Below are positions 51,488 to 56,016 of a DNA stretch of 64,000 bases, one piece after another (within the stretch, counting starts at the first letter, position 1; the number at the start of each line of letters is the position of its first letter). The notes beneath the pieces are model-generated. The model did no database searches. It was not told the origin of the DNA and worked only from the letters and a program-made list of their open reading frames with translations. The translations under genes and the position numbers were made by a program. This DNA is from Actinacidiphila bryophytorum (lineage in GTDB: Bacteria; Actinomycetota; Actinomycetes; Streptomycetales; Streptomycetaceae): positions 124,001 through 188,000 of the forward strand of contig NZ_JAFFIX010000013.1 of NCBI RefSeq assembly GCF_016916835.1, written 5' to 3'.

Positions 51488-53284
51488 TCAGGACCCGGGG
51501 GTCAGCTTGACCCACTTGGCGACGCTGGGGACTCCCTTGGCGTCGAGCAGGAAGAGCATGTAGTAGCCGGGGGGCGCCGCGTTGGCCGACGGCGGGGCCT
51601 TGAGGGTGAGCTGGTTGCCCGAGCGGGCGGTGATCTCCAGGTCCAGGTGGCGCTGGCTGGTGTCCACCGCGTGCGTCGACGTGATCGGCGCCATCAGGAC
51701 GGCCCGGCTGACCTGGCCGGGCGTGGTGGTGGTGACCTTCATCGAGCTGCCGTAGCCGACTGCCCCGGTGGGCACCCGGGTGAGGGTGGGGCGCGCGCCC
51801 TGGTGCAGGTAGGCGGGCTCGTAGATCTCGATGGTGCCGTTCATGCCGGACGTGATGTCCGGGTTGTTCGCGATCTGCTGGAGCTCGTCTCCGGTGACCA
51901 TGATCCGGCCGTCGGGGAGGATGACGGCGTTGGAGTGGTAGCCGCGCGGCAGCCGCTGGGAGGGGCCGAGCGTCCATTTGCCCGCGGTGTCCCGCAGTTC
52001 GATCTGGCGGTACTTCAGGTCGGCGTTGGGGTTGTAGTCGCCGTTGCCGTAGTTGCGGATGTCGTAGGAGCCGTTGACGGTCAGCAGCGTGCTGTCGGGC
52101 AGGATCAGGGTGTCGTCCTGGGTGCGGCCGAACGCCCGCGGGGTGTCCTTGTGCCAGGCGCCGCCGGAGAAGCGGTACGTGTTGGGGTCGTTGCGGTTGC
52201 CGCCGAGGATCAGCACCGAGTCGGGGCCCTGGGTGCCGTTGGGCAGCGCGATGGCGGAACCGTAGTTGCGCAGGCCGCCGTCGGGGCGGTCGGGCAGCTG
52301 GGTGCGGGTCTGGGTGGCGGGGTCGAAGCGCCATTCCTGGTCGGCGTCGCGGCCGAAGCCGTAGATCTTGCCGTCGTTGAGCGAGAACAGGTGCGGGTAG
52401 TCCATCCGGTAGGGCGCGTCGGACTTCCACCGGTCGGCGGCGACACCGTCGGGCACCTGGCCCTTGGTGAGCGGGACGGGGGTGTTCTTGGCCGGGAACT
52501 GCTCGATGACCGGGGTGGGGGTGCCCCAGCCCAGCTCGGACTGGCCGGACATGATGACCTGGCGGCCCTCGGCGTCGGTGACGACGGTCGGGTACCAGCG
52601 GCCGACGGAGAGGTCCTTCTGCTGGTGCCAGGTCTCGGTCCACGGGTCGAAGACGAGCGCGAGCTTGGCTCCGGTGCCGCCGTTGCCGCCGAGGTTGCCG
52701 CCGAAGACGCCGACCATGCCGTTGGGCAGGTAGGAGTGGCCGGCGCAGAAGAACGGGGCGGGGCGCGGCTCGTTCGTGCCGTCGGGCATGTCGACCACGG
52801 GCGGCGGCACGGCCTTGAAGGCTGCGGGGCCTTCACCGGCGGCCGGGTCCCAGACGTAGGCTCGGCCGGCGTTGCGGCTGCCGATGACGTCGGTGGGGGC
52901 CGGCTCCTTCTGCGGGTTGTCCTCGACGCTCTCGAAGGAGAACAGCAGGACCTTCCCCGTCGGCAGCAGCGCCACGTGCGCGGCGAAGTCGGGGCTGGAG
53001 AAGTAGTCGGTGAACTGCCCGAACTTCGCCGGGTCGAACTTCGCGTTGCCCTGCGCCTGCGTGTCGGTGAGCATTTTCAGCCGCGCGGTGCGGGTGGTCT
53101 GCGGGTAGTCGGTCTGGACGGCCCGCACGTCGCGGTCCCCGGTGCCGGGGTCGGACGCCGCGGAGGCCGTGGTCAGCGGCGCGGTCAGGGCTGCGGTGGT
53201 GCCCAGGGCGAGGACGGCTCCCCAGGCCGCCCGCACTCCCGGCCGCCCGGCGCGTGGTCTCGTACGTGATCTGTTCGGTGACAT
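51488..53284 (-). CDS. Secreted copper-radical oxidase (galactose/glyoxal oxidase-like)
   Basis: A 598-residue exported kelch-propeller protein with a C-terminal DUF1929 domain. The signal peptide ends near 'TTASAAS'. All positions of a Tyr-Cys radical copper site can be assigned by pattern: C180 in 'PFFCAGHSYLPNG', Y231 in 'SVGRWYPTVVT' (crosslink pair), Y449 and H450 in 'PRGYHSNAVILPDGR', and H538 in 'ITSTHAVDTSQRH'. Such enzymes oxidise alcohols or aldehydes with release of hydrogen peroxide. In streptomycetes the paralogue GlxA acts on glycans at hyphal tips, but its usual CslA partner is not adjacent here. GAGGAG lies before the ATG. Confidence 0.88.
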   Translation of the reverse strand: MSPNRSRTRPRAGRPGVRAAWGAVLALGTTAALTAPLTTASAASDPGTGDRDVRAVQTDYPQTTRTARLKMLTDTQAQGNAKFDPAKFGQFTDYFSSPDFAAHVALLPTGKVLLFSFESVEDNPQKEPAPTDVIGSRNAGRAYVWDPAAGEGPAAFKAVPPPVVDMPDGTNEPRPAPFFCAGHSYLPNGMVGVFGGNLGGNGGTGAKLALVFDPWTETWHQQKDLSVGRWYPTVVTDAEGRQVIMSGQSELGWGTPTPVIEQFPAKNTPVPLTKGQVPDGVAADRWKSDAPYRMDYPHLFSLNDGKIYGFGRDADQEWRFDPATQTRTQLPDRPDGGLRNYGSAIALPNGTQGPDSVLILGGNRNDPNTYRFSGGAWHKDTPRAFGRTQDDTLILPDSTLLTVNGSYDIRNYGNGDYNPNADLKYRQIELRDTAGKWTLGPSQRLPRGYHSNAVILPDGRIMVTGDELQQIANNPDITSGMNGTIEIYEPAYLHQGARPTLTRVPTGAVGYGSSMKVTTTTPGQVSRAVLMAPITSTHAVDTSQRHLDLEITARSGNQLTLKAPPSANAAPPGYYMLFLLDAKGVPSVAKWVKLTPGS

Positions 53285-54024: not shown

Positions 54025-54291
54025 TCACCGGGCGTCACCGTCGGCCGCCGACGGCTCCGCCGGGCGGAGCTTCCGGGCCGCGCGGCCGGCGCGGAAGGCG
54101 AGGAGGCGGGCCCGGCGGGGCGCCGGGGCAGGTGTCTCGGCGTGCACCCGGGCGTGCTTGGCGAGCAGCGCCTGTGCCTGGATGCGGATGCGCTCCGGGT
54201 CGAAGCCCGGCGGCGGTTCCGCGCCGCCGACCAGCGCGGCCAGCAGCCGTTCCTGCGCCGCCCCGAGGGCGGCCCGCTCAGCGTCCGACAC
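54025..54291 (-). CDS. Small helical protein in the DUF692 operon
   Basis: An 88-residue protein starting at GTG ('[22 protein letters not shown]') and overlapping the 3' end of the DUF692 gene by 14 bp. It contains '[27 protein letters not shown]' and an Arg-rich end ('[17 protein letters not shown]'). DUF692 enzymes that modify peptides usually work with a small partner that presents the substrate (MbnC, TglI). This gene occupies that position but has no visible similarity to those partners. It could be a substrate-binding partner or a simple accessory protein. Confidence 0.65.
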
Positions 54292-55108
54292 CGGCGCCCC
54301 TTGCCACCGCGCCGCGGATGGCGGCGAGTTCACCGGCGAGCCCGGCGTCCGTCGGGTAGTCGCCGTCCCTCTCCAGCAGCACCCCCGGCAGCTCCGCCCT
54401 GGCCGCGAGGTCGGCGAGCAGGTCGAGCACGGCCGGCCCCACCGGGTGGGTGTGCGTGTCGTGCCAGACGCCGTCGCGCTCGACCCCGCCCGCCACATGG
54501 ACGTAACCCAGCCGCTCCAGCGGGAGTTCACCGAGCACTTTGTGCGGGTCGGTGCCCAGGTTGACGTGTGCGGTGTGCAGGTTGGCGACGTCGACCAGCA
54601 GCATGGCCCCGGTCCGCTCGGCGACCTCGGCCAGGAACTGCCCCTCGGTCAGCTCCTCGTCGGGCCAGGCCAGCAGCGGTGCGATGTTCTCCAGCGCCAG
54701 CGGGACCGGCAGCTGATCCTGGGCGATCCTGATGTTCTCGGTCAGCACGGTGAGCGTGTCCCGGGTCCTGGGCACCGGCAGCAGGTGCCCGGCGTGCCAG
54801 GCGCCCGCCCGGGTGAAGGCGATGTGCTCGCTGACCAGGGGCGAGCCCAGCGCCTGTGCGCACGCGGCGAGATGGGCCAGCCGCCGGGGATCGGGGCGCT
54901 CGGCGCCGCCGAGCGACAGCGAGACGCCGTGCGGGACCACCGGTGTGCCGCGCTCGCGCAGCACCCGCAGCGAGGCGAACAGCCGCTTGGGGTCGATGCC
55001 TTCCGCGACGGCCTCGACGAAGTCGACGCCGGGCAGCCGCTCGACGGTGAGGTCGATGCGCGGGCGCCAGCCGATGCCGTAGCCCAGGCGGGGCGCACTC
55101 GCGGTCAT
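54278..55108 (-). CDS. DUF692 multinuclear non-haem iron oxidase-like protein
   Basis: A 276-residue TIM-barrel protein of the DUF692 (MNIO) family that includes MbnB, TglH and ChrH. These enzymes use two or three iron ions to rearrange cysteine residues of ribosomal peptides (known). The metal-ligand pattern is visible: H60 ('[12 protein letters not shown]'), E94-H95 ('SEHIAFT'), E140 ('LENIAPL'), D173/H178 ('DVANLHT'), H204 ('YVHVAGG'), H219-H221 ('[10 protein letters not shown]') and E246 ('LLERDGDYP'). Its ATG overlaps the stop of a membrane protein with a Gly/Cys tail (ATGA), so the two products are made together. Confidence 0.88.
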
Positions 55109-56016
55109 CCGCCGCACCCGCCGCAGCCGCCTCCGCACCCGCCGCCCCCGCAGCCTCCTCCGCCGGAGTCGCCGCCCCCGGAGTCCGTGGAGCCGGACCC
55201 GGACCCGGACATCCCGCCGTAGAGGGCCTGACGCAGGTCGGGGTCGGCCACGCCCGCGGCGCCGAGCACGGCGACGCCGAGCACCGCGGCGGGCACGAGC
55301 ATGTCGTCGCCGCCGGAGGGCGCGTAGGAGGCGATGCCGTAGGAGCCGAAGAGCCGCGGGTCGGGGACGTGCCCCTGCCGGGCGCGCTCCAGCAGCCGGT
55401 CCCCGGCCAGGGTGCGGCGCGGTGCGCTCGCGGCGACGGCCACCGTGATGCCGCCGCTGAGCAGCAGGGCCACGACCAGCAGGCCGACCGGTCGGCCCAG
55501 GTGGACGCCGTTGACGAGCCGGGCGACGCCGACGCAGAAGACCGCGGCGAGCGGCAGGGCCGAGGTCAGTGCCGCCTTGCGGCGGCCCGCGCCGAACAGC
55601 AGGCCGCGCCGGACGGCGTCCTGGGCCACCTGCTGGACGGGGGCGCTGGCGGCGGCCCGCGTCCTGGCGGTCGACAAGGTGATGCCGGCCGGGGTGTCGA
55701 AGCAGCCCAGCACCGCCTGCTGCACCGGTTCGTGCGCGACCTGCACGCCTGCCGGGCTGATCCGGTGGTCCCGGCCGGCCCGCAGCCGGCCCGTCTCGAC
55801 CAGTGCCTGCACGGCGGTGTCCACCACACGTGCCGTGCCGCCGCCGACGACGGCGAGCGTGTAGACGTCGGCGGGCCCCGTCCCCGCCGCCGGGTCGGTG
55901 TCCCGCCGCCTGCGGAACCCCGCTTTCAGCAATGCCGCTGCGATGCCCGCGACGGCGAAGGCCGCCGCGTACACCCCGAGGAATTCCGGTCCGCTCATGC
56001 CCCACGGCTGACTCAT
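55105..56016 (-). CDS. TIGR04222-type membrane protein with Gly/Cys-rich tail
   Basis: A 303-residue protein with a first hydrophobic segment (about residues 11-31), a soluble domain of about 120 residues ('[20 protein letters not shown]') and further spans at about 150-170 and 175-197. After '[11 protein letters not shown]' the last 35 residues are almost only Gly, Ser and Cys, with C289, C294, C298 and C301 separated by Gly runs. This layout matches the TIGR04222 family, known to end in such tails and to be encoded beside DUF692 proteins. The tail is a plausible target of the coupled DUF692 enzyme. ATG 56016 is preferred over longer starts. Confidence 0.8.

Follow-up and report, generated by a model that had tools for sequence, protein, structure and literature searches.

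Does an MNIO enzyme act on the cysteine-bearing tail of the membrane protein that is encoded next to it? What is known of MNIO enzymes comes from peptide natural products, and the question is raised here by three overlapping minus-strand genes in the window, by which we mean the whole analysed stretch of 64,000 nucleotides from Actinacidiphila bryophytorum. The operon (54025–56016) holds the gene of a TIGR04222 membrane protein, then that of the MNIO and then an 88-amino-acid gene; the DUF692 gene overlaps the membrane protein gene by 4 nt and the 88-amino-acid gene by 14 nt, as the earlier note on this DNA had described for its two ends. The host genome (~8.05 Mb) contains one MNIO gene and one TIGR04222 gene. 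The features are the following:

55105–56016, minus strand: gene of the TIGR04222 membrane protein, 303 amino acids (NCBIfam TIGR04222, 'near_uncomplex')
55108–55212, minus strand: low-complexity Gly/Ser tail of that protein (residues 269–303), putative modification site, with Cys 289, 294, 298 and 301 and a C-terminal CGG
54278–55108, minus strand: gene of the DUF692/MNIO enzyme, 276 amino acids (PF05114), iron ligands present
54025–54291, minus strand: 88-amino-acid gene, most likely a shortened MNIO-partner domain ('F1'), homologous to full-length domains of ~120–185 amino acids

The enzyme belongs to Pfam family PF05114 (MbnB_TglH_ChrH; E 2.1e-74, 250.6 bits against a cut-off of 25). Taking the iron-ligand list of TglH (PMC10880893) as reference, we aligned His95, Glu140, Asp173, Asn176, His204, Asp217, His219 and Glu246 with His107, Glu151, Asp184, Asn187, His216, Asp229, His231 and Glu258 of TglH, respectively, and assigned His60 to His71 of TglH by motif, since this position lies outside the aligned stretch. 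All nine residues are invariant in an alignment of 19 relatives, which bears out the claim that the metal ligands are intact. The best NCBIfam model is that of the bufferin maturase, although its 174.8 bits fall below the cut-off of 310. In the bufferin system (BufA/BufB/BufC) an MNIO likewise acts on cysteines of Cys-rich proteins, but the precursors are small and secreted, with a Sec signal peptide and DUF2063-RRE partners, whereas the operon described here encodes a polytopic membrane protein (303 amino acids, three or four transmembrane segments) and a short partner in which no RRE is recognisable. Judged by its sequence, the N-terminal segment of the membrane protein resembles a transmembrane anchor, with positive charges on its C-terminal side, rather than a signal peptide.

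The small gene had been taken earlier for a partner-type protein, and the comparison of genomes (100 loci retrieved from 150 Streptomycetaceae genomes, plus a GTDB set of 80 named loci) agrees with this. Every Streptomycetaceae MNIO locus compared (77/77) has the F1 domain, encoded by a neighbouring gene in 46 and fused to the C-terminus of the enzyme in 31, the fusion being the arrangement in most Streptomyces; of the GTDB loci, 69 have it fused and seven separate, while the four from which it is missing are all on short or cut contigs. This fusion and constant presence are strong evidence that F1 is the partner of the enzyme. The window copy retains the conserved N-terminal helices, without the remainder, and is only about half-length; those of its close relatives are alike, and fused copies of Mycobacterium/Mycolicibacterium show the same shortening. 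The 88-amino-acid gene most likely encodes a truncated form of this conserved helical partner domain.

The AF2 model of a full-length F1 homologue is all-helical and lacks strands (pLDDT 92.9), so that an integrated RRE, which we had considered for the partner, was ruled out. Its top structural match was MbnC, the partner of the MNIO MbnB, both in Foldseek (probability 0.33) and in VIA-align (Z 5.3, a value below the trustworthy level for helical matches; 83 residues aligned, 3.4 Å), and neither NGO1945 nor TglI was among the matches listed. The match to MbnC is weak by itself, yet it falls on the functionally expected family. No Pfam or NCBIfam match was obtained for the 88-amino-acid protein, the host genome contains no DUF2063 protein above the cut-off, and a search of the PDB with the partner alignment returned nothing usable; three of 36 F1 members match DUF2063 weakly (best E 3.9e-4). 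Adjoining the MNIO and having no DUF2063 Pfam signature, the 88-amino-acid protein agrees in these two respects with a PME-type 2 partner; a PME-type 1 partner would carry a C-terminal winged-helix RRE, which does not agree with an all-helical homologue and a window copy of 88 residues. TglHI and MbnBC are likewise pairs of enzyme and partner, the iron ligands of the window enzyme matching those of TglH and the partner fold being nearest to MbnC; their substrates, however, are short leader peptides, and the window partner is without their C-terminal RRE domain.

At its C-terminus the membrane protein reads ...GGGGCGGGGCGGGCGGCGG. The four cysteines stand where they had been reported (289, 294, 298 and 301), but their spacing is not quite as even as was claimed, since the intervals shorten towards the end (C-G4-C-G3-C-G2-C-GG). 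All 11 same-genus loci with the gene order of the window keep three to five tail cysteines and end in CGG; loss of these cysteines in close relatives that retain the enzyme, which would have spoken against a role as substrate, was thus not seen. By computation over the family, tail cysteines and enzyme are conserved together: a Cys tail is found in 57 MNIO-positive genomes and lacking in 18, and it occurs in none of the 12 genomes without an MNIO (Fisher p 4.9e-7, without phylogenetic correction). Four genomes contain unlinked Cys-tailed copies, and all four have an MNIO elsewhere. The tail cysteines are followed by glycine in 463 of 600 cases (77%), against a background of ~30% after other residues, and the Cys-Gly repeats differ in number and spacing among tails. 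The unit of enzyme, small protein and Cys tail, whose co-occurrence the earlier note had suggested comparing, is conserved; it recurs across dozens of genomes, well above chance, and gene order and tails are also seen in Nonomuraea, Mycobacterium and one further family. A phylum-wide sample had an MNIO in 14 of 246 genomes, too few for useful statistics. As a separate observation, the Ser-rich tails of Streptomyces (e.g., L085, L093 and L102) often open with a single Trp-Cys (WCG) ahead of the Cys-Gly repeats, a start that the window subtype lacks.

Part of this picture is in print. TIGR04222 proteins were reported to adjoin MNIOs, and their Cys-rich C-terminal tails, placed in the periplasm, were proposed to be modified (Antoine et al., July 2025; PMC12452194). 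The pairing was therefore known as a genomic association, as had been noted for this locus, but the idea of the tail as substrate had also been published already; a search of the available literature for a characterised TIGR04222 modification found none. The published clusters, mostly from Actinomycetota, share with the window the enzyme family, the membrane protein, the Gly/Ser Cys tail and the proposed relation between them. PME-type 2 partner genes were described in at least 10% of them, many being apparently without a partner gene (PMC12452194), whereas here the partner domain is present in all Streptomycetaceae MNIO loci examined and is often fused. The identity of the partner gene goes beyond the 2025 survey and is new here, as is the reassessment of the fold and of the side of the tail. 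By its sequence, the operon is a real candidate for a conserved modification system, of a kind already published.

We propose that the MNIO and its helper modify the Cys-Gly tail of the membrane protein encoded by the overlapping gene, and give this explanation as a whole a probability of roughly 0.6. The small helical partner (the 88-amino-acid protein, fused in most Streptomyces) would activate the MNIO, which would oxidatively modify tail cysteines, mostly in Cys-Gly pairs. The tail would lie on the cytoplasmic face of the membrane, the same side as the enzyme, and would be held at the membrane by a GOLPH3/Vps74-like domain; this folded domain may also help the enzyme to find the tail, since the winged-helix domain with which standard MNIO partners bind peptides is missing from this one. 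If the analogy to bufferins and methanobactin holds, the product may be a thiooxazole-like five-membered heterocycle. As to physiological role, we infer that the tail so modified would most likely bind a soft metal, for example copper, again by analogy, or serve redox sensing. If this is true, the role of MNIOs would extend beyond peptides to ordinary proteins of the cell, in a very large group of soil bacteria. The partner, conserved and often fused, would then supply what the 2025 survey missed in many of these clusters and, with the partner identified, the reaction should be reconstitutable with three small genes.

The membrane protein matches NCBIfam TIGR04222 with E 1.6e-38 (132.6 bits against a cut-off of 43). 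Its predicted layout comprises TM1 (residues ~12–30), a domain (residues ~46–271) with an inserted TM2–TM3 hairpin (residues ~143–196) and then the tail, which is disordered in the AF2 model (mean pLDDT 80). Over residues ~46–271 the model aligned with GOLPH3/Vps74 at VIA-align Z scores of 6.5–8.3, along up to ~165 residues, where scores under 8–13 can be due to chance, and the top four Foldseek matches were GOLPH3/Vps74 (Vps74) chains, though with E ~0.8. Profile comparison with the GPP34 proteins of related genomes gave P 0.002 in the expected register, against 0.11–0.88 for reversed and unrelated controls. The Pfam GPP34 model (PF05719) did not match the membrane protein up to E 1, and the TIGR04222 alignment retrieved nothing usable from the PDB, the matches being Gly-Ser linkers. 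An RRE-like winged helix, considered for the cytoplasmic part, was rejected, as it was not among the listed fold matches, where GOLPH3/Vps74 stood instead. We take these comparisons as pointing to a likely, if unproven, remote relation of the TIGR04222 core to GOLPH3/Vps74, from which the family differs by TM1, the inserted transmembrane hairpin and the Cys tail.

A GOLPH3-like fold implies that the last hydrophobic segment is a core helix, and the positive charges, which place both hairpin flanks inside, imply that the folded domain and the tail are inside the cell. Contrary to the published claim, the tail is thus probably cytoplasmic rather than external, with some doubt for the window subtype. 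According to Antoine et al., the tail would become extracellular through a fourth transmembrane segment; with modification taking place in the cytoplasm beforehand, this is a variant of our explanation that excludes it only as regards the side, and we consider it possible, if unlikely. Apart from the topology claimed in print (PMC12452194), it draws on segment 239–257 of the window protein, whose hydropathy is 2.23 (mean of 1.84 in tails ending in CGG) and which, being more hydrophobic than its counterparts, could be a fourth transmembrane segment in this subtype. In other subtypes the means for the homologous segment are 0.99 and 0.71 and it bears charges there, its family-wide hydropathy maximum is 0.76 against ~1.9 for TM2/TM3, AF2 predicts a helix of just 13 residues at this place, and a soluble homologue shares the same segment. 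Charge pattern, AF2 model, profile and hydropathy comparisons thus favour the cytoplasmic face over a tail 'exposed on the membrane', as the earlier note had put it. The more specific proposal, namely that an MNIO with a minimal RRE-less partner permanently modifies, on the cytoplasmic face, a folded GOLPH3-like membrane protein at its Cys-Gly tail, and does not mature a secreted peptide, is one that we advance tentatively, at somewhat less than even odds.

The suggestion that the tail is the substrate agrees with the conserved unit and with the tail cysteines kept in 11/11 loci, but not as an obligatory relation throughout the family. Eighteen family loci have an MNIO with only Cys-less TIGR04222 proteins and six have an MNIO with no TIGR04222 at all, so that the tail cannot be the sole substrate family-wide; many Streptomyces keep MNIO and partner without any Cys-tailed TIGR04222, and the GTDB set shows the same absence of Cys tails beside some MNIOs. 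No Cys-rich replacement precursor was found beside the MNIO in the loci without a Cys tail. In eight genomes without a Cys tail a soluble TIGR04222-like protein is encoded at a distance from the MNIO gene, and most of its copies terminate in poly-Gly with a single Cys, e.g., GFGCGGGGGGPD; related proteins in some genomes having a Cys-tailed TIGR04222 mostly lack that cysteine, some of them keeping the Gly run (L293–L300 and L322–L325 for the soluble proteins as a whole). As candidates for a replacement substrate the soluble proteins are suggestive, but among the genomes lacking a Cys tail only these eight have them, and they are unlinked to the MNIO. We also observed that Cys-less TIGR04222 paralogues (L112–L121 and L159) carry His/Arg-rich tails, e.g., AHREPHHHAFHRHD, and persist where the Cys-tailed copy is gone.

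The Streptomyces that keep MNIO and partner without a Cys tail, together with these eight genomes, are what would be expected if enzyme and partner acted on another, perhaps soluble, substrate, the Cys-tailed TIGR04222 protein working alongside them unmodified, for instance as an anchor that binds metal through its thiols. We regard this as improbable: genomes without an MNIO are also without Cys tails, the MNIO gene overlaps that of the TIGR04222 protein, these MNIO genes have no other precursor nearby, and the soluble protein too bears a Cys-Gly tail in most copies. That the TIGR04222 protein serves the enzyme as a scaffold or membrane-bound partner, its tail binding iron or delivering a peptide, might be suggested by its large folded domain and by the transmembrane partner noted elsewhere for a DUF692 enzyme (PMC10880893), but it is very improbable, given that a dedicated partner domain is already there, fused in most Streptomyces, and that the Cys-Gly repeats are substrate-like in their variable number and spacing.

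Beside the operon, the window contains a galactose-oxidase-like gene (51488–53236, minus strand; GO-like_E_set, with a weak GlxA match). Such a gene adjoins the MNIO operon in five of the 11 same-genus loci that share the gene order, all close relatives (the window, L064, L065, L068 and L069), and the four copper-site motifs of its product (Cys, Tyr, Tyr-His and His) are all present in four of the five, L068 having three motifs; as a pointer to copper this neighbour is at most a hint. In two further loci of the genus, both without TIGR04222 (L075 and L076), the MNIO has another copper oxidase gene, a GlxA-like one, in its vicinity. Around the Streptomyces MNIO (L140, L141, L111, L118 and other Streptomycetaceae loci) lie genes that look by sequence like the haem genes hemQ, hemY and hemE; a PTH2-like gene precedes the MNIO, and genes of a DUF4142 protein and of an alpha/beta-hydrolase-like protein are also present.
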